Shown here one piece after another: positions 31,746 through 61,832 of a stretch of DNA of 64,000 bases. The notes below the pieces were generated by a model. It searched no databases. It was not told the DNA's origin and saw nothing but the letters and a program-made list of their open reading frames with translations. The DNA is from Pelagicoccus sp. SDUM812005. Lineage in GTDB: Bacteria; Verrucomicrobiota; Verrucomicrobiia; Opitutales; Opitutaceae. The stretch's first letter is position 1. Each line of letters starts with the position of its first letter. The stretch covers positions 124,001-188,000 of the forward strand of contig NZ_JARXIA010000001.1 in assembly GCF_031127875.1 (NCBI RefSeq), in the 5' to 3' direction. The position numbers were made by a program, and so were the translations under genes.

Positions 31746-31801
31746 TTGACAGTTAATTTCATAGCGTGCAGTTATTTCACTCGTTATTTCAAATGAAATA
31801 A
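31746..31801 (+). promoter_or_regulatory. Receptor promoter with palindromic operator TTATTTCA-NN-TGAAATAA
   Basis: A TTGACA hexamer (31746-31751) is followed 38 nt later by the perfect palindrome TTATTTCA-aa-TGAAATAA (31784-31801). One extra TTATTTCA half-site lies between them (31772-31779). The site is 90 bases before the receptor's annotated start. The same palindrome at the same offset from a TTGACA occurs at 44641-44696. No clean -10 box could be picked. A site just downstream of a promoter would suit a repressor (inference). Confidence 0.6.
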
Positions 31802-31890
31802 ATACCCACCCTGCGGCGAGCTTGTACCTCCTTTGATGTTTCGCTTCGCCATTTCTTGAACTCCATAACCCTAAAAAACCTACAAACTCC

Positions 31891-34800
31891 ATGTTTCTAC
31901 TAAAAACATTGGCCTCTTGTGCGTCCGCTCGTCGGAGTCGCACCAATGCCTATTCCGGGGGGAGCGACTCTGTTCCCGAATCCGGAAATACGCGAGTCCG
32001 CCCTTGTTCTGGGCAGGCTTTTTCAATGCGAGGATTCGGTCGTTTGATCCTTTGTTTGCTCACGCTCGCGACATTTTTTGCATCCCCAGCGGACACTTAC
32101 GCTCAGAATGGGCGGGGTGAGGTTGCTGGCCGCGTAAAGAATATTAGGACGGGGGCCTTTCTCAGTTCTGCTCGAGTGAAAGTACAAGGCACGGCGATCG
32201 AAACTCTTACAGACAACGATGGTTTCTACAGTCTCCGCAACGTGCCAGAAGGTGATGTTAAGATTGTGATCGATTATACGGGTGCAAAATCTCGCATTTA
32301 CAATATTTCGGTTTCGGAAGGTGAGATTGTGCAGTTGGATCCGCAACTGATTCCCTGGTCCAAGGATTTGGACTATTCCAAGGTAGATGACGATGACGTG
32401 TTCGAACTTGCGCCTTTCGAGGTGGAGGCGAGCAAGGAGTTCGATGCTCGGATGTTAGCTTCGAATGAAGAGCGCTTTTCTACGAACTTGAAGAACGTCG
32501 TATCTACCGATGCTTTTGGGGCGGTCCCACAGGGCAATGTAGGTGAGTTCGTAAAGTTCATGCCAGGCGTGCAGGTGAACTATGGTTCAGGTGCGTACGG
32601 CAATGGTGCTGACGCGACTGCGATTTCGATTCGAGGATTTGGAGCGGACCAAACTTCTGTAACTATTGATGGGGTCGAGATTGCTGGAGCTACTCCAGGT
32701 AGCATGACTCGCGCTGTTGGGCTGGACATGATGTCCATCAACAATGCTTCTCGCGTTGAATTGGTGAAGGTCCCCACGCCCGATATGCCATCGGATGCGA
32801 TTGGTGGTCAGATCAACCTCGTGAGCAAGTCTGCTTTCGAGTACGCCAAGCCGCGCCTGTCTTGGAGCGCCTACTTCAATGTTAATTCTGAAAACCTCAG
32901 CTCCGATTTCATGTTTGGTAAGACTCCGGGACCGGGCGAAGGTGAGACTTGGAAGATGAAGCCGAGTTACAGCTTTTCCTATGCGCTTCCGGTTAACGAA
33001 AAGTTTGGACTAACGTTGAACGCTGCGATTTCGAACCAGTTTGACGAGAACCATAACCTCAAGTTGAAGTGGAAGGATGATTTCCGCCGGACCAATGAGG
33101 ACACCGGACTGAAGAATGACGTTCGCAATCCCTATTTGGAGCAAGTTTCAATCACTGACGATCCACGTTCTTCCAAACGCAAGTCCTATAGCGCGAAATT
33201 CGACTATGCCCCAACGGACGCTCATTCATTCACATTTAACGTGCAGACGTCGACCTTCTCTAGCGTGCAGGGTGCACGTCGTTTCCAGATCGATGCCCGC
33301 AATCCAGATGCATGGGGGGACGATTATACTATCGGTACGGGTGGTCAGCTTGCGCAGGAAGGCTTTATGCTAGATCGGGACGGGGATACTCTCTCTAGTT
33401 ACCTCAAGTACAAATTTGACCAAGGCCCATGGGAGGTTAGCGCCGTAGCTTCTCACTCAAAGTCGGAAGGCGAGCTTGTAAGTGGTCGCAATGGTCATTT
33501 CACTGGCCTAGAGGTAAAGGGTGGAAATCTTGGTTATATCGAGTTCCATGATATCGCGAACGGGGTTCCTGGATCGATCATCGCCGTAGACAAACAAGGA
33601 AATCCTTATGATTGGGGTGATATAAATAACTTCGAAATCGAACCCGACGAACAAAGCGATGGCGGTACAGACCTGACTGTGTTGGCAGGCGAAGCGAAGA
33701 CGACCAGTATTCGCGAGTCGTATAAGATTGATATCCGTCGCGAGCTCGATTTTATTCCGAGCGATGCTATGCAGCTCGCGTTTAAGACCGGTTTTCACCG
33801 TCGTGTCTTCGACGAGTCTAAATCTGGCAAGGGAACGAATTACAAGTACCGTTACGTCGGCCCATCGTCGGCATTCAATCCGGAGCTCTATTATGATGAT
33901 GCTTACTCGGGCCAGAGCCTTGGTTACGGGGTGAGTGGTGTCGCTTGGGTTGATCCTTACAAGCTTTGGTCATTCTTTGAAGATAATCCAGACTACTGGA
34001 GCGACACGCAGGATGTTGCGGACGGCAAGACGATTGCTGCCAACAACTACGAGGAGGGCATTAAGAATATCAAGGGCCTGAGGGAGACAGACGATTCGTT
34101 CTATGCTATGCTTGAAGGCAAGTTCTTCTCAGGTAGGTTGAATGTCGTAACGGGTGTGCGTGACAGTAAGAAGAAGCGCGAAGGATACGAGCCTTACCGC
34201 GATACTAACTACGGATTCGTTAAAAATGAGCTAGGTCAATTCATCACCTATGAAGATTCCGAAGGAAGCATTCAGCGTATTGATATGAGAAACGAAAGTC
34301 TTTGGGAGTCCTACCAAGCCGGTGAGGAGCCCGAGATCGAAGCTGCCCTTGCTTCGTCCGGTCAGACTTGGGATGAACTCGTAGTTCGCAATACGCTTAG
34401 CCAGGCGACCCGAGAGTGGAAAACCTACTATACGAGCGGTGAGGTTGATCAGTCGCCAACCTACAGCTGGAACATGGCCTATGACATCAATCATAAATGG
34501 AAGGCTCGTTTTGCGTGGTCTAAGACTTCCGCTAGTCCCGACTTCGAAGACACTTTGAACGGTAATCGAGTGGAAATTCATGACAACGTCGAGGATCCTG
34601 GGGGGAAGATCAAGATTGGAAATCCGAGCCTAGAGCCTTGGACTTCTAATAACTATGATTTCTCAGTTTCCTACTACAATGACCGTGGAGGTAAGCTTAC
34701 GCTTACGTACTACGAGAAGCATGTTGAAAACTTCTACAAGAATATCAGTGAAGGCGTAACCCCAGAGCTCATTGCTCAACTCAACTTGCCGGACTTTGAC

Positions 34801-35379
34801 GATATCGAGTTCTGGACGGTGGAAACGCGTGTCAATGGTGAAGGGACGGCGAAGACTTCCGGTTACGAAGTCGATTTCACGCAGGATTTGAGCATTCTCG
34901 GAGATTGGGGGCGTAACGTTAGTTGGTACGCGAGCTATGGCACCAAGAGCACGACTCAGAAAGATACGGACTCCCTTGTTCAAACGCCTGACGACTCTGC
35001 AGCCAGCGGCGTAGCAGTACGAATAGGCAAGTTCAGCGCGAACGTGAAGGGTACTTACCGTTCAGAAACGATCCGCAAGAACAACTCTGGTCGTCTCTGG
35101 CACGCAAACCCAGATCGCAGTGATAGCGAAACCATTCAGTACTACACCTTTACGCCTTCCGAGGAGCGTATCGATGTCAACCTGAACTACCAGATCAACG
35201 ACAAGTATGGGATCTTCTTCAATGCCTCGAACATCACTGACACTGGTTCTGAAAATATCCGTATCTCTGACGAGTCCGAGCGCATAGGAGCGGAAGGCAT
35301 GTGGCCAGCCTACGCGATGCTTCAAGAGAAGCGTGTACACGGCTTCAATATGACCTTCGGCGTCAACGGTCGCTTTTAG
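31891..35379 (+). CDS. TonB-dependent receptor with carboxypeptidase-like N-domain
   Basis: A 1162-residue outer-membrane transporter. After a signal peptide it has a carboxypeptidase regulatory-like domain (about 75-150, GEVAGRVKNIRTGAFLSSARVKVQGT), a plug domain (about 180-300, GNVGEFVKFMPGVQV, SIRGFGADQTSVTIDGVEIAG, VELVKVPTPDMPSDAIGGQINLV) and a long beta-barrel ending in aromatic VNGRF. It looks like the TonB-Xanth-Caul type used for large carbohydrates. A second start at 32026 (MRGFGRLILCLLTLATFF) would give a normal signal peptide; the ATG at 31891 adds 45 polar residues before it. No SusD partner follows, as is usual outside Bacteroidota. It probably imports the oligosaccharides made by the enzymes from 38 kb on. 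Confidence 0.9.
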   Translation: MFLLKTLASCASARRSRTNAYSGGSDSVPESGNTRVRPCSGQAFSMRGFGRLILCLLTLATFFASPADTYAQNGRGEVAGRVKNIRTGAFLSSARVKVQGTAIETLTDNDGFYSLRNVPEGDVKIVIDYTGAKSRIYNISVSEGEIVQLDPQLIPWSKDLDYSKVDDDDVFELAPFEVEASKEFDARMLASNEERFSTNLKNVVSTDAFGAVPQGNVGEFVKFMPGVQVNYGSGAYGNGADATAISIRGFGADQTSVTIDGVEIAGATPGSMTRAVGLDMMSINNASRVELVKVPTPDMPSDAIGGQINLVSKSAFEYAKPRLSWSAYFNVNSENLSSDFMFGKTPGPGEGETWKMKPSYSFSYALPVNEKFGLTLNAAISNQFDENHNLKLKWKDDFRRTNEDTGLKNDVRNPYLEQVSITDDPRSSKRKSYSAKFDYAPTDAHSFTFNVQTSTFSSVQGARRFQIDARNPDAWGDDYTIGTGGQLAQEGFMLDRDGDTLSSYLKYKFDQGPWEVSAVASHSKSEGELVSGRNGHFTGLEVKGGNLGYIEFHDIANGVPGSIIAVDKQGNPYDWGDINNFEIEPDEQSDGGTDLTVLAGEAKTTSIRESYKIDIRRELDFIPSDAMQLAFKTGFHRRVFDESKSGKGTNYKYRYVGPSSAFNPELYYDDAYSGQSLGYGVSGVAWVDPYKLWSFFEDNPDYWSDTQDVADGKTIAANNYEEGIKNIKGLRETDDSFYAMLEGKFFSGRLNVVTGVRDSKKKREGYEPYRDTNYGFVKNELGQFITYEDSEGSIQRIDMRNESLWESYQAGEEPEIEAALASSGQTWDELVVRNTLSQATREWKTYYTSGEVDQSPTYSWNMAYDINHKWKARFAWSKTSASPDFEDTLNGNRVEIHDNVEDPGGKIKIGNPSLEPWTSNNYDFSVSYYNDRGGKLTLTYYEKHVENFYKNISEGVTPELIAQLNLPDFDDIEFWTVETRVNGEGTAKTSGYEVDFTQDLSILGDWGRNVSWYASYGTKSTTQKDTDSLVQTPDDSAASGVAVRIGKFSANVKGTYRSETIRKNNSGRLWHANPDRSDSETIQYYTFTPSEERIDVNLNYQINDKYGIFFNASNITDTGSENIRISDESERIGAEGMWPAYAMLQEKRVHGFNMTFGVNGRF

Positions 35380-35407
35380 TAGGTAGCGAATTTAAGATAA
35401 CGTTTCG

Positions 35408-35442
35408 GAGGCCCAGCACCGTCTGTGTTGGGCCTCTTTTCT
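35408..35442 (+). terminator. Rho-independent terminator after the TonB receptor gene
   Basis: GAGGCCCAGCAC / GTGTTGGGCCTC (12-bp stem with one wobble, 35408-35436) followed by TTTTCTTTC. Confidence 0.88.
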
Positions 35443-35446
35443 TTCG

Positions 35447-35493
35447 AAAATCAAGATGAGCTTTTGTCCACCTAGTGGCTCATCTTGATTTTT
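35447..35493 (+). terminator. Second terminator-like hairpin
   Basis: A perfect 15-bp inverted repeat (AAAATCAAGATGAGC / GCTCATCTTGATTTT, 16-base loop) ending in a T run. It follows the first terminator by five bases and lies before the DUF3826 gene, so readthrough from the receptor gene should be low. Flanking A and T tracts allow it to work in both directions. Confidence 0.7.
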
Positions 35494-35546
35494 CACCCTC
35501 AAGGCTAATTTTTGGACAAAGTTCCACCACTTTCGTCAGTATTATA

Positions 35547-36200
35547 ATGAAGATTGAAATTTTTCAAAAACTACCCCTTCGGGCTTTCATGGCAGCGGTC
35601 TTACTTTCCATGCCCGCAAACTTTGCGGTAGGCGGCGACTCTGATTCTTCAAGCGTGGACGCTGCCTACTGGAACACTGTCTTGAAGCGCAGCGAAAGGA
35701 TCGTATCAAACTTATCGATAGAGGACCCTGCCAAAAGCGAACGCGTAATCGAAATAGTAGCCAGGCAGTATGTTGACCTTCGCTCTATTCATGACGCTCG
35801 CGACGCAGCCATCGATGGCGGTGGCACTGAGATGGATATTCGCCAAAAGGCCAGGCTGGAGATTTTCGAGTTGCACTTCGCCTTCCTCGCTAAGCTCTCC
35901 TCCGAACTAGATCAGTCGCAAGTGGAGCATGTGAAGGACGGTATGACATATGGCGTGGTTCCGAAAACCTACCGCCGTTACATGATGTTGTTGCCTGACT
36001 TGGGGGAGGGGCACAAGCGCTGGATTTACGCTGCTCTTGTTGAAGCTCGCGAGCACGCGATGAATGAAGGAACGTCGGATGAAAAGCACAAACGTTTCGG
36101 ACAGTACAAGGGGCGTATAAATAATTACCTGTCAGCTCTCGGTATAAACATGAAAGAAGCTGAAAGGGCTTTGGCAGAGAGGGAAAAAGCCCAACGCTAA
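35547..36200 (+). CDS. Secreted DUF3826 family protein (first copy)
   Basis: A 217-residue exported protein. A signal peptide (about residues 1-30, ending MPANFAVGG) precedes a helical domain with AYWNTVLKRSERIV near the start and the family segment GMTYGVVPKTYRRYMMLLPDL followed by LVEAREHAMNEGTSDEKHKRFGQYKGRINNYL. DUF3826 proteins have no known activity but recur in pectin-type utilisation loci of Bacteroidota and Verrucomicrobiota. A paralogue is encoded at 58704-59498. The frame is open to 35475, but that part overlaps a terminator hairpin, so the ATG at 35547 is preferred. Confidence 0.8.
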   Translation: MKIEIFQKLPLRAFMAAVLLSMPANFAVGGDSDSSSVDAAYWNTVLKRSERIVSNLSIEDPAKSERVIEIVARQYVDLRSIHDARDAAIDGGGTEMDIRQKARLEIFELHFAFLAKLSSELDQSQVEHVKDGMTYGVVPKTYRRYMMLLPDLGEGHKRWIYAALVEAREHAMNEGTSDEKHKRFGQYKGRINNYLSALGINMKEAERALAEREKAQR

Positions 36201-36429
36201 GCTAGTTTTCGAGAATCGGAGTTGTCAACGCGGCATCCATCGGATCCTCCTTAGGATTGTATATATGTGGACTCGAGCGAATTCTTTCGAGCTTCCAAAA
36301 TTGAGGTTACTGCATTGCTCGTTTATGTTTTATTTTGGGGCGATTCGCATCGCTTGAAATCACATTTAAGTTTGGGTAGCGTTTTAGCAAACGCTCTTTT
36401 TAGCTCTTTGGATTGTGACTGAGAAATCT

Positions 36430-37638
36430 ATGTGTTCATTGTTTGCTAAGGTGTTTGTTTGGCTTTTTGCGAGCTTCGCTTGCTTCGCATCGGGGCAAAC
36501 TGGATCCTGGGAAAGTACCCTTGATGGAATTTCCGAGCCTCTGGTAGTGAAGGTCGAAGGTGCTGGGTATGTTAAGACAGCAATCGTTCTGGAAAACTTA
36601 CCTCATCTGCCTGTGAGCAAGGTTCGGTCGACGCGAGCCAAAGTGCTGCTTCGCAGCAAGGGGTTCAGGATCGTATCGATCGATTATGGAGAAAGTGTAG
36701 CGGCTACCTTTCCGGCGATTTGCAATGATATCTATCAACTTCGATCTGATATTTTGCAGGGAAAGCTCTTGCGGGATTTGGGGTTGGACTGGGATCAGGC
36801 GCGGGTTTTTATCCTACCGGAAGGGCAAGTCGTCGAAACCGATGTGCTTCACTATGAGGACGGCGATCGGAATCTATATTTGGACATAACCTACCCGCTT
36901 ATTGAAGAGGAGGGGGCGCGAGTGCCCTGTTTACTTGAGTTCTCCTGCGACAACAGGGAGCGGATGGGAAACTTTTCACTGGTCGCTTGTCGCGATACGT
37001 TGTTGGAAGGCTTAGCTTTTGCTGGATATGCCACGGCGATGGCAGATCACCCGGTTGCTCCACCTTACAAAGGCTTGGATTCGATGCCCGATAGCGCTTA
37101 CAAGGTTAAATCTGCTGTTCGAACTCTACGAGCAGAGGGAAAATGGATAGGGCTGAGTGGTGAGATTGCCGCCATTGGGTTTTCGCGAGGAAGTGGAATG
37201 GCCCTTTTGTTGGCTACGACGGAAGGAATCGAGTCCTTCGAGAAAAAAGGTTTCTGCTTAGGGGAGGAGAGCTCTATACAGGCAGCAGTTGTGCTTTCCG
37301 GGCGTTTTAGTTACTTGGAATTGCTGGATGGGGACCCCATGTTACTTCGCTATAAAAAAGCTTGGGGTTCATCGCCTGCGGCCCATGGAGTATGGAAAGC
37401 TCATGGGGCGCTCGATTATTTGAAAATTCCGACGATTCCCTTGTTTCTAAGCATTAATTCTGGAGAAGGACGTGATGCTCAGCATCAGATGAAAATATTG
37501 AGAGCTCGTTTGGGCGATATCGGCAGTGAGTATGTGTATTTGGAAGACGGAGACGGGATGGGGCACAAAGTTCCGATCAGTTCTGGGGTGCTTGAGCGAA
37601 TAGAGGCCTATTTGGATACAAGATTGAAGCTGCCCTAA
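36430..37638 (+). CDS. Secreted alpha/beta-hydrolase (acetylxylan-esterase/dienelactone-hydrolase type)
   Basis: A protein of about 402 residues with a signal peptide (MCSLFAKVFVWLFASFACFASG). The first 150 residues form an unrecognised beta-rich region. The rest is an alpha/beta hydrolase with nucleophile elbow GFSRGSG (about residues 254-260), an acid in the region of FLSINSGEGRDAQ and a late His in GDGMGHKVP. A carbohydrate esterase role (removing acetyl or methyl groups from a pectic glycan) fits the neighbourhood but is inference. The ATG at 36430 is preferred; GTG at 36415 is in frame. GC content is clearly lower than in the housekeeping genes to the left. Confidence 0.68.
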   Translation: MCSLFAKVFVWLFASFACFASGQTGSWESTLDGISEPLVVKVEGAGYVKTAIVLENLPHLPVSKVRSTRAKVLLRSKGFRIVSIDYGESVAATFPAICNDIYQLRSDILQGKLLRDLGLDWDQARVFILPEGQVVETDVLHYEDGDRNLYLDITYPLIEEEGARVPCLLEFSCDNRERMGNFSLVACRDTLLEGLAFAGYATAMADHPVAPPYKGLDSMPDSAYKVKSAVRTLRAEGKWIGLSGEIAAIGFSRGSGMALLLATTEGIESFEKKGFCLGEESSIQAAVVLSGRFSYLELLDGDPMLLRYKKAWGSSPAAHGVWKAHGALDYLKIPTIPLFLSINSGEGRDAQHQMKILRARLGDIGSEYVYLEDGDGMGHKVPISSGVLERIEAYLDTRLKLP

Positions 37639-37778
37639 CAGTTTGGTGGGGTATCGTGTTTTTCAAGGACGGTTGCCTGAGAGGGATACTGATTGAGGTT
37701 CCCTCCGTTGCATCTCTATTATCTGAATCTCTGTTTGTGTTGTTGTTGAGAGAGTGCTTTACCATCGCACTTGTTTTG

Positions 37779-37802
37779 CTAGGGATTCGCTTTAGCGAAT
37801 CC
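37779..37802. other. Hairpin between convergent genes
   Basis: A 10-bp perfect inverted repeat with TTTA loop (AGGGATTCGC / GCGAATCCCT) lies between the convergent hydrolase and small secreted-protein genes. Neither side has a T-tract, so it is not a classical terminator, although it may still slow polymerase. Confidence 0.45.
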
Positions 37803-37824
37803 CTGTAGCCTGAATCTAATCAAG

Positions 37825-38415
37825 CTATTTTAGCTGTGCGTTTAGTTTGTTGAGAAAACCGTGAATAAGGCTACCTTTGATCTTTAGTTCTGTTTCTCCG
37901 ATTTTGTTAAAAACCTTTAGCTCGAGTCCCTTGAACTCGTGTTTCTCGAGGAGAGGAAGTGACACTTTGACGGTCGACATCTGTGTGATCGCATCTTGGC
38001 CTGGGTTTGGAGTTGGAGGCGCAATTTCTACATAAAGAGGGAGCCCGTCAGCTTGTGCCTTCGAGTAGTCCATCGAATCGCTATCGTACTCTGTGAAGGA
38101 GAGATGAGTTTTGGTTACGATGATTTGAACCGCGAGGACCTTTTTGTCGCGGACTGCAGCTCGGAGGTAGTAGCGTTGTGTTTCGCGTATGGGATCTTCT
38201 TCGATAGGAGATTCTATGAGCAAAAGATTGTTTGTCTTGTCTTTGATTACTCTTGTTTCGAATCCATAGGAGCGAGCTTCTCTCTTGTGCATTTTCAGCT
38301 CTTTTGGCGTGAGACCTGATGGATCTTCGTCTTTGGCAGATAGTTGGGTGGTCGTTGCAAGGATGAAGCAATTCGCAGCGAGAATGAATTTTAGGATTTT
38401 GGGCATGTTTTTCAT
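37825..38415 (-). CDS. Secreted hypothetical protein at operon end
   Basis: A 196-residue protein with a typical signal peptide (KILKFILAANCFILATTTQLSA, cleavage near residue 27). The mature part alternates charged beta-like segments without a recognised motif. Its ATG lies one base after the stop of the acetylesterase-pectate lyase gene, so it is translated from the same minus-strand operon. Function unknown; a periplasmic accessory of the glycan system is the simplest guess. Confidence 0.7.
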   Translation of the reverse strand: MKNMPKILKFILAANCFILATTTQLSAKDEDPSGLTPKELKMHKREARSYGFETRVIKDKTNNLLLIESPIEEDPIRETQRYYLRAAVRDKKVLAVQIIVTKTHLSFTEYDSDSMDYSKAQADGLPLYVEIAPPTPNPGQDAITQMSTVKVSLPLLEKHEFKGLELKVFNKIGETELKIKGSLIHGFLNKLNAQLK

Positions 38416-38416
38416 G

Positions 38417-41400
38417 TTATTTTTGAGTTTGATCGTTTAGATAGATTTCTAGGTTAGTGTATCCACTGCCTTGTGGTTCGAGTAGGTGTCCGTCGGGGGT
38501 GTAGGGATCGAGTCCGTTTTCTATCTCCCAGTGGTTGGGCATGCCGTCTCGATCTGTGTCCCAATCCCTAGGGCGATGAATTTCGGGATAGTCTTCCCAT
38601 CCTCCAACGTCCTCCTGAGAGTCGGGGAGCCCGGGATCGCCGCTTTTGCTTCCTCGGTAGGTGAACGTCCCGCTACGCGTTTCACGGATGATCCGTTGGT
38701 CGTGCTCGTCGAGTTGGGGAAGGTTGCAGCCGACGTCGGCGAGTACGTTTCCGTAGGCTTCGGCGGCGTTTTGCGTTTCCACGTAAGCGGGAAAGAAGGG
38801 CTTATCTGAAAGGTAGTTGCGTTGCGGCTCGTATTCTTTTGTCAGGATACCTTTTCGGTTTTTAGGGGCTTTGACGTATCCTTCCATAATGTTTCCTTCT
38901 ACGAAGTAGTCTTGTGAACCGAAGGCGGCGACTAGGTCGCGTTGTGGTTTGAGCAAGTGGAAAACTCTAGATGCGGGACCGGGCTTGTAGTAGTTATTTA
39001 CATACTGGACTTGTTTCGCGCCACCGTCGGTGGTGCGACCGCCCCAGTTGTAGACGACGTTATTGCGAATATCCAGGCGCCCCGCGTGACGGCTAGCTTG
39101 GTCGAGTGCTCCAGCTAGGCTCCAGTTGCGTCCTTCGTTGTGGGCAAGAAGGTTATGGTGGAAGCTGCCGATGTCGCCGCCGATGCTGGCTGCGTAGCCG
39201 TGCTTTTTACCTGCTGCGTATTTCTTGTGTCCGGCGATGTTGAGCGCCTCGGAAATGAGCGTGCGTTGGAGGGTGATATTGCGGGCCCCTCTCGAACTGA
39301 AGGCTTCGTCTTGGGTCCAGCTAATGGAGCAATGGTCGATGATGCTGTGGTCGCTGCTGGCCATCCCCATGCCGTCCATGGTCATGCCGCTTGCGTCGCC
39401 GGGACGCACTCGTAGGTATCGAAGCACTACGTCGTTCGTTCCTAGTAGGCCGAGGTTGTAGTGCGATATGCAAATACCTTTTCCGGGGGAAGTTTGTCCC
39501 GCGATGGTGATGAACGGATTTCGAATGGTCAGCTTACTTTTGAGTTCGATGCGGCCCGATACGTCGAAAACGACGGTACGTGGTCCGGATGCTTCGATGG
39601 CGGCCCGCAAGCTGCCTTCTCCGCTGTCGTTGAGGTTGGTTACGTGGAACACCTTGCCGCCTCGCCCGCCGCGAGCGTATCGTCCGTAACCTTCCGCTCC
39701 GGGGAATGCGAGTTGGCGCGGCGCGAAAGTCCAGACTTCTCCGCGAGTGATAATTCCATCTTCGGATACGCTATCTACGCGCCAAGCATAGTGTCGCAGG
39801 CTGTTGGACTCTGGCAGTTCGACGGTATAGCTGCTTTCAGCGGTTTGGCCTAGGTAGGATCGAGAGCTGCGGCCCGCCTGGCTGACGAGTTTGTAGGCTT
39901 CCTGGCGGGAATCGGACTCATAGAGGTAAACATGGAAGGATATGGAATGGGGGGCGGCTTGCCAGTGCAGGGTGATCGACTTTGCATCCAGGTCGGCATG
40001 TATGTCGCCATCGGACGGATATGGATTGCTCGCTCGCGTCTGGGGATTGGGAACGTCGATCGCGAACGCGTTTAGCATGACGCCTTTATCGGCGTTGGTA
40101 TCGGTGGGCGTGAAAACGAGTTCGATTGGATCGTTGTTGGTTATATCGAATTCGTAGTAGAAAGTAGAGGAATCCTCGTCCTTCTCAGCTTGAAGGCTTG
40201 GGCTGACTTTGCCTACGGCCCGGCCGTCGTGGCTGATCGTAAGTTCAGCGTAGGAGTCGCTTCCGGGAGCGTTATGGTAGGTCGCGATAGAGTGCCGCCC
40301 GTTTGGCAGTCCGGAGATTGATAGCTTTAGTGGATCGCCCTTCGCTGAGGCGACGCCATCGCTTACGAGTTGTGCTCCGGTGGCGAGCCCGGCCTTGTTC
40401 CAGTTCCCTTGCAGCGGAGACTGGCTGAGGGCACTGAGGCTTATGCTAAGACCTTCCGCGTCTAGGCGGGCGGAATTCGCATCGCTGACGTTCCATTCGG
40501 TCCAGTTTGCTTTTTGGTTATCGTTGCGGCCGTTTTCAGGGCTAAGGTCGAAACGCTTCGCTTTGAAGAATGGGGGAGCCAACGTGTAGAGCGATTTTTC
40601 GTCGGTGCGGAATGGGTAGAGCGGGAGTTCGTCACGAGTTTTCGGTGGGCTTGCTTTTTCGTCCCAAGCGTAGCGCGCATAGGTGGGAGTTGGGATACCG
40701 GGATGGCTGAGCTCGACGTATCCGTCTTTCCATGTCGCTTTGGCCGTTCTATATAGGCAATCTGGTCCGGCGATTTCAAAGGAGCCCAGTTCGCCCGGTT
40801 CGATGGTGCGCGAGGCCTCGAGAGCTTTTGAGAATTCAAGAACAAGTGTGTTTTTGGCTCCCTTACGAACTGATTGTAGCGTTGGCATCACCTGGGTGAA
40901 TTGGGCGAGGTGGTAGGTGTCCGAGAGGGCTTGTTTTGCGAATCGCAGTCCGACGTCTCTTTTGTTGATCGGATGGATGTCGCGAACGTTTCGCACGAGG
41001 TCGATGGTTGGGATGATTCCGGTGTTCTTGGTGGTGTATGTTACTGACAATTGGGCCTCCCAGAAAAGGGGTAGGGCATCCAGGGTTAGCGACTTGTGGC
41101 CGATCCATTCGGAGTAGGTGAAGGGGGCAAGTTGGGCGAAGTAGAAGGGTGCTTCGAGGGCGGACCACCTTTTTCGCCAGGCCTCGATGAGGCTTTGCAT
41201 CTTCAGGGCGTAGATGGAGGAGTCGCCGTGCATGAGGTTGGACTCGCCTTGGTACCACAGGAAGCCGCGTAGTGTGTAGGGCGCCAAGGGCTCGATCATG
41301 CTTTGGTAAAGTTCGGTGGCTTGTACCCCGTCGATCCAGGAGAAGTAGGGGCGTTGCAGCAGCGGTTCTAACTGGGGGTGGGCGCGAAATGCGGACTCGG

Positions 41401-42100
41401 GCATCCAGGCCTCGATCATAGTACCGCCGAAGGCGGAATGTATCAGTCCGATGGGTACGTCGAGTTCCTCCAGGAGTTTTTGTCCGAAGTGGAAACCGGC
41501 AGCGGAGAATTGCATGGGGTCGAGAATCTTAGGGGAGCAGGGGACCCAGTTGGATTCGAGTTCGGGGTTGGAGATCTTGACGTTGTTGGGAACGCGGAAA
41601 AGCCGCAGGCTTGGCAGGTCGCCTTCGGCGAGAACCTCAGGGTAGCCGAGGCTGGGCTTTTGTCCTCTCTTCTCGCCTAGAGGTTTGTCCATGTTGGACT
41701 GGCCGGAGAGTAGCCAAACTTCACCTACGAGCACGTCCTCGAAACGGATCGTGTTCTCGCCGCTGATGGTAAGCGTGCGGGGCTCGAAACTGGCTGCCAA
41801 GGCAGGGAGCTTGAGCTTCCAATCGCCGGTGGCGCTTGCGGTGGCCTTCGCTTCTTTGTCGGCGAAGGTGACCGTGACTGCTTCGTGCGGGGCGGCGGTT
41901 CCCCAGATGGCGACGGGCTGGTCGCGTTGCAGGACCATGTGATCGCTGAAGATGGGCGGGCAATCGACGGCTGCGGATGCGAGCGTAGAGAGGAGTGCGG
42001 TTGCAAGCGTCAGTAAGGTCTGGATACCGTGGCAGGGCCTTGCGAGAAACGTCTGCTGACGAGCTGAGCGGCTTTGGGGATTCTGGAAAGGCGGGAGCAT
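38417..42100 (-). CDS. Fusion: sialate O-acetylesterase-like SGNH esterase + CBM-like/FN3-like + PL1 pectate lyase
   Basis: A 1227-residue exported enzyme. After a signal peptide (to about residue 43) comes a SASA-type esterase: nucleophile Ser135 in GQSNM, oxyanion WYQGESN near 240, and DIHPINKRD with the catalytic Asp/His near 330. A carbohydrate-binding-like sandwich (about 530-700) and an FN3-like segment (about 710-790) lead to a right-handed beta-helix pectate lyase from about residue 796 (FPGAEGYGRYARGGRGG, TVVFDVSGRIEL, ITIAGQTSPGKGI, DHCSISWTQDE). The C-terminus has a calcium-type repeat (DWDTDRDGMPNHWE). One chain could deacetylate and cut pectin. The ATG at 42100 shares a base with the stop of the upstream GH2 gene; the frame stays open further left only through that gene. 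Confidence 0.85.
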   Translation of the reverse strand: MLPPFQNPQSRSARQQTFLARPCHGIQTLLTLATALLSTLASAAVDCPPIFSDHMVLQRDQPVAIWGTAAPHEAVTVTFADKEAKATASATGDWKLKLPALAASFEPRTLTISGENTIRFEDVLVGEVWLLSGQSNMDKPLGEKRGQKPSLGYPEVLAEGDLPSLRLFRVPNNVKISNPELESNWVPCSPKILDPMQFSAAGFHFGQKLLEELDVPIGLIHSAFGGTMIEAWMPESAFRAHPQLEPLLQRPYFSWIDGVQATELYQSMIEPLAPYTLRGFLWYQGESNLMHGDSSIYALKMQSLIEAWRKRWSALEAPFYFAQLAPFTYSEWIGHKSLTLDALPLFWEAQLSVTYTTKNTGIIPTIDLVRNVRDIHPINKRDVGLRFAKQALSDTYHLAQFTQVMPTLQSVRKGAKNTLVLEFSKALEASRTIEPGELGSFEIAGPDCLYRTAKATWKDGYVELSHPGIPTPTYARYAWDEKASPPKTRDELPLYPFRTDEKSLYTLAPPFFKAKRFDLSPENGRNDNQKANWTEWNVSDANSARLDAEGLSISLSALSQSPLQGNWNKAGLATGAQLVSDGVASAKGDPLKLSISGLPNGRHSIATYHNAPGSDSYAELTISHDGRAVGKVSPSLQAEKDEDSSTFYYEFDITNNDPIELVFTPTDTNADKGVMLNAFAIDVPNPQTRASNPYPSDGDIHADLDAKSITLHWQAAPHSISFHVYLYESDSRQEAYKLVSQAGRSSRSYLGQTAESSYTVELPESNSLRHYAWRVDSVSEDGIITRGEVWTFAPRQLAFPGAEGYGRYARGGRGGKVFHVTNLNDSGEGSLRAAIEASGPRTVVFDVSGRIELKSKLTIRNPFITIAGQTSPGKGICISHYNLGLLGTNDVVLRYLRVRPGDASGMTMDGMGMASSDHSIIDHCSISWTQDEAFSSRGARNITLQRTLISEALNIAGHKKYAAGKKHGYAASIGGDIGSFHHNLLAHNEGRNWSLAGALDQASRHAGRLDIRNNVVYNWGGRTTDGGAKQVQYVNNYYKPGPASRVFHLLKPQRDLVAAFGSQDYFVEGNIMEGYVKAPKNRKGILTKEYEPQRNYLSDKPFFPAYVETQNAAEAYGNVLADVGCNLPQLDEHDQRIIRETRSGTFTYRGSKSGDPGLPDSQEDVGGWEDYPEIHRPRDWDTDRDGMPNHWEIENGLDPYTPDGHLLEPQGSGYTNLEIYLNDQTQK

Positions 42101-44505
42101 CAGAGGTTGATTTGGGCGGATCCTAGGCCGTTTGCGGAGGCGGAGAGGGTGACGGGGGCGTCGCCGCTGATTTCCACGACTACGAGGGCGCGGCCTTGGT
42201 GGGTGGATCGAGGATTCGCCCCGTAGCGTTCGTTGCTGTCGAGAGCGCCGCTGCCGATGGCTAGGATGCGGGCGGGCCCCGTGAGGGTGTAGCTGATTGG
42301 CGCGTCGTGGGCGGGATTCCAGAGTCCCTCCTGGTCGGCGATCTCGAGGTGAACGAAACGGAGGGAGTTGGGCGTTTTGCCGAGTAGGGGCTGCTCTGCC
42401 ATGAGGCTGAGCGTTTGTGGTGCCGCGGCGGTTTTTAGTTCGAAGCGTTCGACTTCGTTGCCGTTTTCGTCGAGGCCGATGGCGCTGAGGGTGCCTTTTT
42501 TGTAAGGAACTTCGAATACGGCTTTGAATTCCTGCTTTTCGCCGGTGGGACGGGTTCCGATGCGGTTTCCGTTGAGCTGGATGGCTACGCGGGGGTGGCG
42601 GGAATAGACTTCCACGGTGAGCTTGCTGCCAGGTTTGACGGTGGGCCAGGTCCAGGAAGCGAGCCGGGGCGAGCTGGCCCAATTGTGCTTGTTCCACGGC
42701 TTTCCGTCGGTGCTGGGCGGTTCGACTGCGGCGTAGAGCGTTTCGCCGCGATCCCAAACGATGTTTCGGTAGTGGGAGATGGGCTTTCGGGCGCCGGTGA
42801 TGTCGATGTCGCCGCAGGCGGCGCCGTGCCAAGGGAAGTGGCTGCCTTCCCAGTGGGGGCGGGCTTCTTGGTCGGGAGGGAAGACGCGTCCGATGCCCGC
42901 TTCGCCGAGGTAGTCGATGGCGCTCCAGACGAAGTCGCCGATGACGTAGCTGTTTTCGACGCTGGTTTTCCAGGATTTGAAAGCGTCGTCCAGGTAGCTT
43001 TCGGAAGCGTAAATGATCCGTTTGGGCAAGCGCTCGTGGTCAGCGGCGTGGCGGTCGATTTCGTAGTTGTATCCAACTACGTCGAGGTGGGAGAAGAGGC
43101 GGTCGAGCTTGGGCCAATCCTCGGGCTTGCCGAGACCGTTGATGCCGGCGGTCACGGGACGGGTCTTGTCGATGGCTTTGATGGTGGCCGCCATCTTTTC
43201 CGCGATTTCGATGCCGCTCTCCTTGCCGCGCTCGTAGACCTCGTTGCCGATGCTCCACATGATAACGCTGGGGTGGTTGCGGTCGCGGAGGATCATCGCT
43301 TCCAGGTCTTGTTGCCAGTTCGCGTCGAAAATCTCGCCGTAGTCGTGCTTGAGCTTCTTGCTCTTCCAGCCGTCGAAGGCTTCGTCGATCACGAGAAGCC
43401 CGTAGTGGTCGCAGGCGTCGAGGAAGGCAGTGGAAGGGAGGTTGTGGGCGGTGCGAACCGCGTTGAATCCAGCCTCTTTCAAGAGTCGCGCTTTCCTGTA
43501 TTCGGCATCGCGATACGCTGCGGCGCCGAGCGGGCCGTGGTCGTGATGCGCGTTGCCGCCGAAGAGTTCAAAGGATTGGCCGTTGAGCTGGAAGCCTTCG
43601 CTCGCCGAAAACTTGAGGGTGCGGATTCCGAAGCTCGTTTCCTGGCGGTCGGTGAGACGTCCGTCGACGAAGCTGCGGCTGACCAGGCGGTAGAGGTGCG
43701 GGGTGTCGGGACTCCAGAGGCGAGGATGGGGCACGCCGAGCTTGGGCGTGACGGTGAAGGACTTGCCCGCAGGAGCCTCGCCTGTTTCGGAATAATGGGC
43801 GATGGGCAGTCCATCCGGATCGATAATGGCGAGGTCGATCTGGATATCCGCGGCGGCGGCGCTTTGATTTCGGGCGGTGGCCGAAATGTCGACGGTGCCG
43901 AGCATGCCGTCTTCCGAGATGTACCATGTGGCAACGGATACCTCGCGCGGGTCGATGTGGATTGGATCAACTACGCGCAGGGATACGGGGCGGTAGAGGC
44001 CGGATCCGGTGTACCAACGCGAGTTTGGCTGGGCGGAGTTGTCGACGTGGACCTCTATCAGGTTGCTGGCGCCGAGCTCCACCTCTTCGGTAATGTCGAT
44101 CGAGAAGGGAGTGTAGCCGGATTCTGTGGTCCATTTTTGGGCGCCGTTTACGTAGACGGTCGCGTTGCGATAGACGCCTTCGAAGTCGAGAATGAGCTTC
44201 TGGTCGATCCAGCGTTTGGGGGCTGGGAGCTCGAGTCGGTAGCGACCCGAGCCGGTCGGAAAGAAACCGCCGCCTCCGGCGCTCGGCTCTGCGGCGGAAC
44301 GGACCAAATCTATGCTCCAGTCGTGCGGTACGCTGACCTCCTGCCAGCGCGGGGCGGCGCCCGGCTGGACCCGGGCGAATTCCCAGCCCTGCGTTAGTTC
44401 GACGGTTTCGCGGCCGGTGGCGAGAGGGAGGAGGGCCGCAGCCAGGAGTCCGTGGGCGAGAGCTTTGGCGGCGCGGAAGCCGGGGTTCAAGGGAAGTGGG
44501 TACAT
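42100..44505 (-). CDS. GH2 beta-galactosidase/glucuronidase-like enzyme (compact type)
   Basis: An 801-residue exported GH2 enzyme. A signal peptide (AHGLLAAALLPLATG) is followed by a sugar-binding sandwich (about 35-185), an immunoglobulin-like domain (about 190-290) and a TIM barrel from about 295 with FGGNAHHDHGPLG, AGFNAVRTAHNLPS, the acid/base Glu near residue 420 in MWSIGNEVYE and a nucleophile candidate in IIYASES near 495. A C-terminal DUF4982-like and Ig-like region follows. Relatives are beta-galactosidases or beta-glucuronidases; specificity is not visible. It is the first gene of the minus-strand operon, reading away from the shared control region at 44.5-44.8 kb. Confidence 0.87.
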   Translation of the reverse strand: MYPLPLNPGFRAAKALAHGLLAAALLPLATGRETVELTQGWEFARVQPGAAPRWQEVSVPHDWSIDLVRSAAEPSAGGGGFFPTGSGRYRLELPAPKRWIDQKLILDFEGVYRNATVYVNGAQKWTTESGYTPFSIDITEEVELGASNLIEVHVDNSAQPNSRWYTGSGLYRPVSLRVVDPIHIDPREVSVATWYISEDGMLGTVDISATARNQSAAAADIQIDLAIIDPDGLPIAHYSETGEAPAGKSFTVTPKLGVPHPRLWSPDTPHLYRLVSRSFVDGRLTDRQETSFGIRTLKFSASEGFQLNGQSFELFGGNAHHDHGPLGAAAYRDAEYRKARLLKEAGFNAVRTAHNLPSTAFLDACDHYGLLVIDEAFDGWKSKKLKHDYGEIFDANWQQDLEAMILRDRNHPSVIMWSIGNEVYERGKESGIEIAEKMAATIKAIDKTRPVTAGINGLGKPEDWPKLDRLFSHLDVVGYNYEIDRHAADHERLPKRIIYASESYLDDAFKSWKTSVENSYVIGDFVWSAIDYLGEAGIGRVFPPDQEARPHWEGSHFPWHGAACGDIDITGARKPISHYRNIVWDRGETLYAAVEPPSTDGKPWNKHNWASSPRLASWTWPTVKPGSKLTVEVYSRHPRVAIQLNGNRIGTRPTGEKQEFKAVFEVPYKKGTLSAIGLDENGNEVERFELKTAAAPQTLSLMAEQPLLGKTPNSLRFVHLEIADQEGLWNPAHDAPISYTLTGPARILAIGSGALDSNERYGANPRSTHQGRALVVVEISGDAPVTLSASANGLGSAQINL

Positions 44506-44553
44506 CGCTTCAGTTCGAATCGTTCAAGTGCTTGAGTTGGGGCGTTTCTATAA

Positions 44554-44696
44554 TGAAACAAAAGTATATTTCACTGAGGTACCTAGGCGTGCGAGGTTCG
44601 CCATAGATTGAGGTCTATAAGTGAGTAGGCGGGATTGCGTTTGACACAAGGATTTTATGAAACATAACGAAATATCAATTATTTCATGTGAAATAA
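44554..44696. promoter_or_regulatory. Divergent control region with palindromic operator
   Basis: The perfect palindrome TTATTTCA-tg-TGAAATAA (44679-44696) lies 38 nt downstream of TTGACA (44641-44646), the same layout as before the TonB receptor. Degenerate half-sites surround it: TGAAACAA (44554-44561) and TATTTCA (44567-44573). A CATAAC box (44663-44668) is a possible -10 at 16-bp spacing. The region lies between the two divergent enzyme operons and could control both. Confidence 0.6.
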
Positions 44697-44798
44697 AGAC
44701 CAGTCTTTAACCCCTTCAAGACCTTGATCCCTTCCTTTCGTAAACTCATTCTCCAGGCTATTGCAGGGCCGGGACGCCGTTCTACGGTGTCGCGTGGC

Positions 44799-47700
44799 AT
44801 GCGAGCGTTAGGGACCCGCATCGCGTTTGCGGCGTTCGCGGTCTCGGCGTGGTGTGGACCTGCTTTGGCGGCAGCCGAGAGCGATTGGGAGCGGGCGTTC
44901 GATCGCCCGCCCGAAAGCGCCAAGCCGTGGACGATTTGGTATTGGCTGAAAGGGGCGGTTTCGAAGGAGGGCATTGCGGCCGACCTCGAAGCGATGAAGG
45001 AAGTCGGTCTGGCGGGCGCCTATCTGATGCCGTTGATCTCGCCGGACGAAGAACCTTTTTGGGAGCCGCCGGTGGAGACGTTGTCGGACGAGTATTGGGA
45101 GCTGGTGGGGCATGCCATGGAGGAGGCCCGCGAGCGCGGGCTGAAGCTCGGGTTGCATGTGGGGCCAGGTTTTTCTTTGGCGGGCGGTCCATGGATCACG
45201 CCGGAGCTCTCGATGCAGCGTGTGGTTTGGAGCGAGGTATCGGTGGAAGGCGGAAGGCGGGTGGAGATCTCTCTCGATCAGCCGCCGACGGGGCAGGGTT
45301 ACTATCGCGATATTGCTTTGTTCGCGGTGCGCGAGCGCGAGGATTTTGAAAAGAAGGCGGACTCCTTGGCGCCGCGTGTGACGACGAACGCGGGAGAGTC
45401 GGTATCGCGCTTGGCCCTTGCGGAGAATGGGGAACCGTTGCGCATGAGCGAGGCTGGATGGATCGAATATGCGTATCCAGAATTGGTGACAGTCCGCTCC
45501 GTGAAGATTCGGCCGCACGGAAACTCCTACCAGGCGCTGCGTTTGCGATTGGAGGCCAGTGTGGACGGAGAGAATTTCGACTTGGTCAAACAGTTCGTGC
45601 CGCCTCGCCATGGATGGCAGGACGGGGGCCAGAGCGTCGGGCAAAGCTTAAGCTTTTCGGTTCCGGAAACGCGAGCAAAGGTATTTCGCTTCGTTTTCGA
45701 TCCGGAGGGAAGCGAGCCCGGGGCGGAGGACCTGGACTGGGCGAAGTGGAAGCCGATCTTAAAGGTGAAGCGTATCCAACTTTCAAGTATGCCCCGCTTG
45801 GAGCAGTTCGAAGGGAAATCCGCTGCGGTATGGCGCGTTGCAGAGTGGACGGACGAGGAGCAGGTGCCAGCTGGACTGGCGGTGGCTCGCGAGGACGTTA
45901 TTGACCTAAGCTCCCGAATGGAGGCTGATGGTTCGCTCCGTTGGGATGCTCCCGAAGGGAAGTGGACCCTTCTGCGCATGGGGCATACCAGCACCGGAGC
46001 AACCAACTACACCGGCGGAGCAGGGGAAGGCTTGGAAGCCGACAAGCTTAATCCGGAAGCGATTAAACTGCAGTTCGATTCCTGGTTTGCGGAAACCTCG
46101 CGTCGCGTGGGGCCGGAGCTATTTTCGGAAGTGGTCCGGGTGCTGCACTCGGACAGTTGGGAGGCGGAGAGCCAGAACTGGACGCAGGGACTGGCGGAGG
46201 AATTTCGGGCGCGGCGGGGCTACGACCCGATCGCAATGCTGCCTGCCATGGCCGGCGTGGTGGTGGAAAGCGCGGAACGATCGGAGCGATTTCTCTACGA
46301 TCTCCGTCTGACCATCTCAGAGCTGCTCAACGATTCCTATTTCGAAACCCTGAGTGAGCTCGCCCGCCAATATAATTGCGAATTCAGTTCAGAGTCGGTT
46401 TCGCCGACCATGGTATCCGATAATCTGAGACATCATGGAACGGTAGACTTGCCGATGGGAGAATTTTGGTTGAAGAGCCCCACCCATGACAAGCCCATGG
46501 ATATGCGAGATGCGGTTTCGGGCGCTCACATCTACGGCAAGCGCATCGTGCAAGCCGAGGCCTTTACGCAATTGCGGATCGCATGGGACGAGGCGCCGCA
46601 TAACTTGAAGGCGCTGGGAGATAGGCATTTTGCCTTGGGCGTGAACCGCTTCGTGTTTCACGTTTTTATGCAGACGCCATGGGTCGACAAGGTTCCCGGC
46701 GTATCGCTCAACGGAGTCGGTCTCTTCTTTCAGAGAGGGCAAACCTGGTGGAACCAGGGCAAGGCTTGGGTAGAGTACCTCTCCCGTTGTCAGGCCCTTT
46801 TGCAGCTCGGGGAGCCGGTAGTCGATATCGCTGTGTTTGCGGGCGAGGAGCGTCCAGCGCGAGCGCTGCTGCCGGATCGTGTCTTGGGCGTTTTGCCCGG
46901 TTTAGCGGGCGAGGCACGTTTGCATGAAGAGTTTGAACGCCTGGCGAACGCCGGAAACAAGCTGCGGGAAGAGCCGAAAGGGGTAAAGGCATCGGCGGGC
47001 ATTAGCGACCTTTCTGACTGGTGCGATCCACTCTCTGGATACACCTACGAATCCTTGAACCTCGACGTCTTGTTGGACGGAGCGAGCGTACACGAGGGTA
47101 GGTTGCGACTAAAAAGCGGCGCAGAGTACGGAGTGTTGGTGGTCCCTGGGAAGCATCGCTTGAATCCGGAAGGAGGCGTTCGCATGTCAAGCGCGTTGGC
47201 AAGTGCTCTGGTGAGTTTCGCCAAAGAAGGGTTGCCGATAATCCTCGAATCAGAACCGCGCTTGCCGCTCAGCTTGCTGGATGGAGAGGACGCGTTGCGA
47301 GCGCTGGCGCGGGATTTGGCCGATCAGCCCAGCGTTCACCTCGGTCCATGGAGCGAGAGCGATTTGGACGCTCTCGGAATTTCGCAGGATATCCGGATCA
47401 TTGGTACGAGAGGAACGCTTGCTGGAGAAGTGGCCTGGACGCATCGACGTTCTCCTGAGGGAGAGCTCTATTTCGTTTCCAATCAATCGGGGAAGCTGCG
47501 GGATTTGCGGCTTTCCTTCCGCGTCGCTGGACTGCGTCCGGAGGTTTGGGATCCTGTGACCGGAGAACGGCGTTTCGCCGATTCGTGGAAAAGCGAGGCT
47601 AGCAGGACGGAGCTCGGGATCCGATTGCACGCGAACCAGTCCCTATTTTTCGTTTTCAAGGAGGAAGGAACCAGGGGCGGAAGTCGTGACAGCTTGAATA

Positions 47701-49231
47701 CGGCGGAGTCGGTACCTCATCAACGCCTCGATGGTCCGTGGACCGTGCAGTTTCCCGAGCGTACGGAACCGGTGGAGTACAAGCGCTACCTCGATAGTTG
47801 GACCCTGCACGAAGATGCGGAGGTAAAGCATTTTTCTGGCACGGCGACTTATTCGCGTACTTTTGACTACGAGCCGTCGGTAGCCCAAGGCCGGGTGTGG
47901 CTCGACCTCGGAATGGTGGCCGATGTTGCGGAGGTGATCCTAAATGGGGAATCCCTCGGTGTGCTTTGGACCGCTCCGTGGCAAGTGGAGGTGACGGGAC
48001 ACCTGCGTTCTGGAGAGAACCAGATTCGTATTGAAGTGACCAATACCTGGAAGAATCAATTGATCGCGGATGAGGCCCGCCGCCCGCAAGAAAAGCAGCT
48101 TTGGACGAACGCTCCCTTCCGCTTGAAAGATGAGCCTCTGCGGGAGGCAGGCTTGTTGGGACCAGTCTTGATTCGTTGCGAAGTACCGGGACGCTCGCCT
48201 GCTAGAGTAGTCATTCCGTTTCCAGAAGCCTTGAAAAGCGATTCGCAGCCGGTTCCTGCAGCGGTAATGCAGGAGATATACGAGGAGGCGAAAACGCCGT
48301 TCAAGTACGGTGTCGTCCTGGCGGGCGGCGAGGGCGAGTTGCTCGATTGCCCGAACGTATTCCGACATGGCGACAAGTGGTACATGATGTTCGTCGGCAT
48401 TACGGACGGTGTAGGCTACCAGACTTACCTGGCCGAGAGCGACGACCTGCTTCACTGGAAGCGGCTTGGGACGATTTTGCCGTTTGCGGAAAGCGGCTGG
48501 GACAAGTGGCAAGGAGACGGCGGGCTGTCGTTGATCGATCACGAATGGGGTGGATCGGCCGCTCTGCAGCAGTACGATGGGAAGTATTGGATGTCGTATA
48601 TCGGCGGCTCGATGAAGGGCTACGAGACGGATCCTCTGTCGGCCGGACTGGCTTGGACAAGCGATCCGCATAAGGTGGAAGCCTGGACGCGTTACGAGGG
48701 CAACCCTATTTTGTCGCCAAACCACGAATACGCGCGGCCCTTCGAGCGGAAGACCGTCTACAAGTCTCACATCGTTTGGGATAAGGCGGAGCAGCTCGGC
48801 TGGCCCTTCGTCATGTACTACAATGGCAAGGAAGAGCGTGGTGGCGGGCACGAGGCGATCGGCATGGCGGTGTCGCGCGACATGAAGGCGTGGCATCGTT
48901 ACGGCGAGAAGAACGTGGTCTACAATAAAGGCGAGCTGCCGTGGGCCATTACCGGCGATCCTCAGATCGTTAAGATGGGAGACGTTTGGGTGATGTTCTA
49001 TTTCGGCGCGTTCTGGAAGCCGGGGGCTTTCGACACCTTTGCGGCTTCCTACGATCTCGTCAATTGGACGAAATGGGAGGGCCCGCACCTGGTCGAGCCC
49101 AGCGAGCCTTTCGACAAGCAGTTTGCCCACAAGCCGTGGCTTTTGAAGCATGACGGTGTGGTGTATCACTTCTACTGCGCGGTTGGGGAAGAGGGGCGTG
49201 TGATCGCATTGGCGACATCGGAGGATTTGAA

Positions 49232-49235
<4 letters not shown>
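44799..49235 (+). CDS. Fusion: GH106 alpha-L-rhamnosidase-like + five-bladed-propeller glycosidase-like domain
   Basis: A 1478-residue exported protein. After a signal peptide (MRALGTRIAFAAFAVSAWC) the GH106 pattern begins: PWTIWYWLKGAVSKEGIAADLEAMKEVGLAG, GLKLGLHVGPGFSLAGGPW, LHSDSWEAESQNWTQGLAEEF and VQAEAFTQLRIAWDEAPHNLKALGD; a beta-sandwich typical of the family closes near residue 1150. From about 1165 to the end a separate domain resembles GH43/GH32/GH130-type beta-propellers (GELLDCPNVFRHGDKWYMMFVG, YQTYLAESDDLLHWK). The ATG at 44799 gives a clean signal peptide; the longer frame begins with TTG at 44724. It opens the plus-strand operon and its stop overlaps the next start. Confidence 0.83.
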
Positions 49236-55149
<5,914 letters not shown>

Positions 55150-55202
55150 CGCGACGTTTGGAACCGCGAATGGACGCTAATACACGCGAAATTTATAGAT
55201 TT

Positions 55203-61679: not shown

Positions 61680-61832
61680 TTCACCGTCGGGGCTAGGGAG
61701 GAAATCGATACTTGTACGCTGCATTTCGCAACAGATTTCTTGCTTGCGGCGCTAAAACCAGGAGCAAGTTTTTTCGGTAATCTTCCGATAAGGATTAGCA
61801 TGTTAAGCTAGAAACCCTAGAGATTGATTCCC

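Follow-up and report, generated by a model that had tools for sequence, protein, structure and literature searches.

A LacI-family regulator as the candidate binder of a conserved palindrome at presumed rhamnogalacturonan-II degradation genes in Opitutales

The Bacteroides loci for rhamnogalacturonan-II (RG-II), a highly complex plant pectin, carry hybrid two-component regulators and SusC/D pairs. Degradation of RG-II by Bacteroidota as well as by Verrucomicrobiota is mentioned in PMC12915301; the passages of that paper considered here also refer to a glucan cluster that includes a LacI gene and describe no regulator for RG-II, and our literature searches found none. For the LacI family, the parts of the survey of Ravcheev et al. 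(2014; PMC4052901) considered here report that, out of 1303 regulators, 1173 have a consensus centred on CG, that the distance between repeats is usually constant within an orthologous group, and that the distances between tandem sites have peaks of 13, 22 and 32 bp. A term search of the text of that survey at hand gave no mention of Verrucomicrobi or Opitut.

The system analyzed here lies in the genome of Pelagicoccus sp. SDUM812005, partly within a 64-kb stretch of DNA hereafter called the window. It resembles the RG-II loci of Bacteroides thetaiotaomicron in that the putatively regulated operons encode homologues of BT_1002 (PDB 5mqp), of part of 5mqr, of 5mqm and of 5mt2, together with an apiosidase-domain protein, and it differs from them in its proposed use of a LacI-type regulator and of a TonB receptor. 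With the LacI sugar regulons, as described in those parts of PMC4052901, it would share palindromic operators, autoregulation, which is frequent there, and the placing of sugar-use genes under a sugar-sensing regulator; unlike there, the operator centre is not CG and the spacers range from 0 to 3 bp. Compared with the peaks of that survey, the centres of tandem sites are here 29–33 bp apart and an extra half-site lies at 12 bp. Taking into account the computed conserved sites, promoter geometry, regulator co-occurrence and gene and domain contents, we propose, with a probability of roughly 0.87, that the palindrome serves as the main operator for a LacI-family repressor whose gene lies outside the window, and that RG-II sugars would relieve its repression of uptake and degradation genes.

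Copies of the palindrome in the window and in the genome

The initial annotation had described a palindrome that occurs before the TonB receptor gene and between two divergent enzyme operons, and nowhere else in the window. The pattern TTATTTCA-NN-TGAAATAA has indeed two exact matches in the 64 kb (Table 1), identical except for the two centre bases (AA versus TG), and no further site with up to three mismatches to the 18-mer was found in the window. At that same tolerance, dinucleotide shuffles of the window give 0.08 expected matches, and two, the maximum, were reached in 1 of 100 shuffles. The extra half-sites that had been said to flank each copy are also present: TTTCA from 31757 and TTATTTCA at the receptor promoter, and TTTTATGAAA together with TGAAAC/ATTTCA (the latter within 44554–44573) between the enzyme operons. 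Before the receptor gene, the extra half-site at 31772–31779 has counterparts in two relatives of the same genus, G001 (as CTATTTCA) and G007; it is also found in the LacI promoters of both and of the genome under study (G000). The outward-facing half-sites near the GH2 start are present in G001 and G007 and absent in G056.

Table 1. Predicted regulatory sites and genes (positions are those of the window unless a contig is given)
Feature	Position	Strand	Remarks
-35-like TTGACA, receptor promoter	31746–31751	+	
Upstream operator O1, degenerate	31757–31766	+	TTTCATAGCG; one good half-site; in the -35/-10 spacer
Extra half-site	31772–31779	+	TTATTTCA; 12 bp before the left half of the palindrome
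Main operator O2 (predicted)	31784–31801	.	TTATTTCAAATGAAATAA; upstream of the TonB receptor gene
TonB-dependent receptor (proposed regulated gene)	31891–35379	+	Pfam; operator also upstream of homologues
DUF3826 gene	35475–36200	+	downstream of receptor
BD-FAE-type esterase gene	36415–37638	+	downstream of receptor
SASA-family esterase fusion	38417–42832	-	leftward enzyme operon; reading-frame bounds, overlaps GH2 frame
GH2 gene	42100–44505	-	first in leftward enzyme operon; reading-frame bounds
Outward-facing half-site pair TGAAA/TTTCA	44554–44573	-	close to GH2 start
-35-like TTGACA, GH106 promoter	44641–44646	+	
Upstream operator O1	44653–44662	+	TTTTATGAAA; 1 mismatch to TTTCATGAAA; no mismatch in G056 at that offset
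Main operator O2 (predicted)	44679–44696	.	TTATTTCATGTGAAATAA; gap between the divergent GH2/GH106 enzyme operons
GH106 alpha-L-rhamnosidase with C-terminal domain like PDB 5mt2	44724–49235	+	
GH95 gene	49232–51727	+	
GH2 LacZ-type gene	51724–55149	+	
Xylose-isomerase-like TIM-barrel gene	55158–56156	+	
GH141 gene	56256–58169	+	close homologue of BT_1002
LacI-family regulator gene	G000:C31:523578–524663	-	same contig as the window sites, at a distance of about 355 kb

Homologues of the DUF3826 and esterase genes follow the receptor gene in G001 and G007 as well, there with a lyase-like gene in between. Just upstream of the receptor gene (28848–31160), ankyrin repeats are fused to a TonB C-terminal domain, an arrangement also present in G007. 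The fusion of GH106 with a 5mt2-like domain is matched over about its whole length in G007, and as two separate pieces in G001 and G056.

The 6.65-Mb genome contains two exact copies of the palindrome, both in the window, one copy with one mismatch and three with two; allowing three mismatches raises the number of places to 16, versus 5 for the backwards-read control pattern. Four of the 16 were judged to be real, namely the two window copies, that at a pectate-lyase gene and that in the gap between the regulator gene and a GH142-like gene; the genes at the 12 remaining places with two or three mismatches (L004, L006–L015 and C107:167050) were left out of the annotation. The one-mismatch copy (C31:524759) lies between the divergent genes of the LacI-family regulator and of a GH142-like glycosidase. 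The two-mismatch copy at C31:225461 is located where a gene begins whose product resembles the solved pectate lyase 9buj; the listed reading frame begins 66 bp before this site, and therefore the true start is probably downstream. The initial annotation had predicted a single regulator, encoded outside the window, for joint control of uptake and degradation, and had proposed a genome scan for matches beside a LacI/GntR-type regulator or at other glycan genes. The third copy, beside a candidate LacI-family gene, and the fourth, at the lyase gene, are of just these two kinds and lend support to that prediction.

Recurrence of the site and of the regulator among relatives

G001 and G007 carry the site ahead of the receptor homologue, in the GH2/GH106 gap, at the lyase gene and in the gap that separates the regulator gene from the GH142-like one. 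Other genomes of the same family (G011, G013, G029, G202) and of another family of the order (G056, G104, G177), in which the target classes recur, have sites before TonB receptors, lyases, GH106/GH2 or the regulator; the receptors of G013 and G029, about 26% identical to that of the window, are not claimed to be orthologs. Sites recur at corresponding promoters, and neither the random spread of many copies nor the lack of conservation that the initial annotation had named as counter-evidence was observed. Five further genomes of the genus (G002–G006) show no regulator (E ≤ 1e-60), no palindrome at up to one mismatch and, among the 12 candidates scored per genome, no receptor relative (E ≤ 1e-100). 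Likewise, no palindrome within one mismatch was found in G014, G025, G026 and G032, which have a receptor relative (E ≤ 1e-100) and no regulator above 50% identity.

Among 57 genomes, our own included, 10 exact palindromes occur in four, all of them among the 10 genomes in which the regulator is present with at least 53% identity (p = 5e-4; G014, whose match is 44% identical, was scored as being without it). Among 273 genomes of the order, exact sites occur in five, three of which (G104, G177, G202) were first met in this larger sample, and all five are among the eight with the regulator (E ≤ 1e-110; Fisher p = 4.6e-9); both p-values overstate the evidence, being uncorrected for descent and based on identity and E-value cut-offs set after the first results, with G000 and G007 being close relatives. 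The three other regulator genomes of this sample have variants only, and none of the 265 sampled genomes of the order without the regulator has an exact palindrome. Throughout the phylum (387 genomes), a regulator match at E ≤ 1e-85 was found in six, all in the order and G014 (44% identical) among them, with up to five candidates being scored in each genome listed. A contig scan gave two relatives, both in Opitutaceae MAGs.

These distributions bear on whether the palindrome might be a repeat arisen by chance or, like a parS site, be bound by a housekeeping protein. TTTCA-NN-TGAAA resembles parS, TTGTTCCACGTGGAACAA was found in the same scan, and one-mismatch copies occur in 4 of the 57 genomes, all four without the regulator, at six sites (one each in G015, G040 and G047, three in G044). 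Nevertheless, this explanation is scarcely credible, considering the 0.08 matches expected in the window, the conservation at corresponding promoters and the absence of exact copies from the 265 sampled genomes without the regulator. TTGTTCCACGTGGAACAA, which we take to be the probable parS site (G007:C37:292836, G013:C18:360752, G021:C338:5950, G029:C70:317941), is a distinct sequence found once in each of these four genomes; identity of the palindrome with parS was rejected, the parS-like sequence being separate in these genomes. Regarding the six one-mismatch sites, no protein of the window, regulator, GH142-like enzyme or lyase has a listed match in their 3-kb loci (E ≤ 1e-8, with a length-times-identity filter), and the sites were taken as chance occurrences. 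A single SASA-like match (31%) is seen in the 17-kb stretch of G015, at 3 kb from the one-mismatch site.

The operator is also found in the promoter of the regulator itself, clearly in 11 of the 14 regulator-bearing genomes and weakly in two (G020, G021). Its spacer is there of 2 bp, with 0–2 mismatches, in G000, G001, G007, G011, G013, G104, G177 and G202, of 1 bp in G056 and G169 and of 3 bp in G035. In G029 no site directly precedes the regulator gene; site L118:8837 precedes a reading frame of 902 aa, lacking a Pfam family, which ends about 40 bp ahead of it.

GH142 and lyase genes accompany the operator as well, and therefore co-occurrence alone is no proof that this LacI-family protein is the binder. 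Another regulator could bind the palindrome, with the gene at C31:523578 being merely a target. Two alternative binders were examined, an OmpR-type response regulator (61008–61724) and a second LacI-type gene (C31:203783–204745, 16 kb beyond the window); both are nearer to the window sites, the second LacI-type protein likewise lacks a normal hinge motif, and in G007 the response regulator (85%) is on the contig of its cluster. Their distribution among operator-bearing genomes disfavours both, and we consider this explanation improbable: the best homologue of the response regulator in G001 is 48% identical and on a different contig from the cluster, no match to it was found (E ≤ 1e-40) in G056 and G169, both of which bear the operator, and none to the second LacI-type protein (E ≤ 1e-20) in the operator-bearing G029, G056, G104, G169 and G177. 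Around the second LacI-type gene, no site with up to two mismatches exists in L098 or L019. This gene (L098), with a GTVSR recognition helix, is matched in 8 of the 13 genomes searched, our own included.

Promoter geometry and the candidate regulator

Of the 33 listed sites, we kept the 26 whose spacer is of two bases and whose target could be named; three had other spacers, two were then without a named target, one was far upstream and one regulator-only. L118:8837 and L140:9521 were excluded from this count, the latter (in G104) preceding a 1091-aa frame that, over part of its length, matches the C-terminal part of the window SASA fusion with 51% identity. The initial annotation had stressed that both window copies begin 38 nt after a TTGACA hexamer; this is correct for the two, and among the 26 promoters the identical spacing becomes a range, an exact TTGACA being found 36–42 nt before O2 in 19. 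A TTTCATGAAA-like sequence (up to two mismatches), which we predict to be a second operator (O1), lies 25–29 nt before O2 in 17 of the 26. These bins were picked after seeing the offset profile; with base-shuffled upstream sequences (2000 rounds) the maxima were 2 for TTGACA and 3 for O1, and the other offset bins gave 0 and 0–1, respectively. The O1 and O2 centres are 29–33 bp apart, which is three helical turns, most commonly 30 (seven promoters) or 32 (five).

The seven promoters without an exact TTGACA in that range comprise three of GH142-like genes (TTGACA at 26), two of lyase genes and one of a receptor gene with one mismatch, and that of the G001 lyase gene with none. O1 is beyond two mismatches in 9 of the 26; at the receptor promoter it has four mismatches to TTTCATGAAA in the window, three in G007 and two in G001, at the same offset. 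A perfect TTTCATGAAA is located upstream of the symporter operon behind the regulator gene (C31:523362), as it is in all six genomes read of the 14 (G000, G001, G007, G011, G104, G202), the symporter domain being confirmed in four of these six. The predicted O1 is an addition to the initial annotation, whose regulon idea is refined in that the 18-mer would often be one of two operators and in that the substrate is probably RG-II.

From the spacing of the -35 and -10 elements, O2 at 31784 is predicted to begin about at the transcription start. This geometry bears on the possibility that the regulator activates, as a LacI-type activator or a dual regulator, instead of repressing. Some LacI-family proteins do activate when bound upstream of -35; in most of the 26 promoters, O1 comes just behind TTGACA and O2 36–42 nt behind it, positions in which they would be expected to occlude polymerase, and activation is accordingly an unlikely mode.

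The operator is an even 18-bp palindrome with spacers of 0, 1, 2 or 3 bp (3 in one genome) and with AA/TT, TG, TA or TC/GA, not CG, at its centre in regulator-bearing genomes; the absence of CpG and the variable spacer are atypical for LacI regulators. The candidate repressor has a LacI-type HTH (PF00356, E = 1.7e-14, residues 11–54) and a periplasmic-binding-protein-like sensor domain (PF13377, Peripla_BP_3, E = 3.6e-29), with RbsR and PurR as PDB relatives. A hinge helix with a P..L motif is typical of the LacI/GalR family, although not strictly defining. This motif is missing from the candidate; 14 aligned regulators (two from G020) keep Y53, R55 and R57 (YxRxR), while 14 paralogs of our own genome, chosen from 30 partly for their normal hinge, keep Y47, P51 and L56. 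Among the 30 proteins read of the 39 LacI-type HTH matches in the genome, only this regulator has VAIGTVSRVFNN with GYVRLRNRKRP, and one other (C31:203810) is without a normal hinge. The AlphaFold model of the regulator has no helix at residues 52–70, with low confidence at 57–68, versus a helix at 51–62 in a paralog control; as evidence on hinge structure, these monomer models and the 14 sequences are weak, since LacI hinges fold on DNA. A literature search on the hinge motif found no paper.

Presumed substrate and proposed mechanism

Proteins of the GH141, GH142-type and apiosidase-type families, which were initially characterised on RG-II, are present along with GH106, and the matched PDB structures too we take to be linked to RG-II. 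The GH106 protein has 5mqm and 5mt2 as relatives, the GH141 protein is a relative of BT_1002 (5mqp), and the GH142-like enzyme resembles residues 613–975 of 5mqr, named beta-L-arabinobiosidase, presumably the GH142 part of BT_1020. For the apiosidase-domain protein (Pfam), the closest solved chain is 4n0r, named putative glycoside hydrolase. Together with GH95 and the pectate lyase, these proteins suggest RG-II as the substrate. The operon behind the regulator gene encodes a symporter, an Fe-type dehydrogenase, a DHDPS-type aldolase, an SBD_N-type kinase and a PdxA-type dehydrogenase, a content that would suit a rare sugar acid. This operon, possibly for the catabolism of RG-II sugars, and another that encodes a DUF6298 protein, for which no solved relative was found at E ≤ 0.001, lie at L016:2408–8296 and L016:10027–19246.

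From these features we infer the binding of the regulator, its repressing mode, the start sites, the effector and the substrate as follows. Dimers of the repressor would occupy O2, close to the point where transcription begins; many target promoters would hold a further dimer on O1 (TTTCATGAAA), between the -35 and -10 elements and three helical turns away. Polymerase would thereby be blocked at the receptor gene, the divergent GH2/GH106 operons, the pectate-lyase gene, the regulator/GH142 gap and the symporter operon. Binding of an RG-II-derived sugar to the periplasmic-binding-protein-like domain would make the repressor leave the DNA, and uptake and degradation would be induced together.

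A more far-reaching idea, to which we give slightly less than an even chance, is that these regulators form a LacI lineage without the DNA-kinking hinge helix and central-CpG reading, which recognises TGAAAYAA half-sites at spacers of 0–3 bp and in which two operators three turns apart build a specific RG-II repression complex. Using only sequence, the analysis connects an unlinked regulator gene with a presumed RG-II degradation system in Opitutales. It yields a short, testable operator and a candidate effector class, the RG-II sugars, and the regulator, as a natural LacI variant, may serve as a test of the role of the hinge helix and of the CpG centre.
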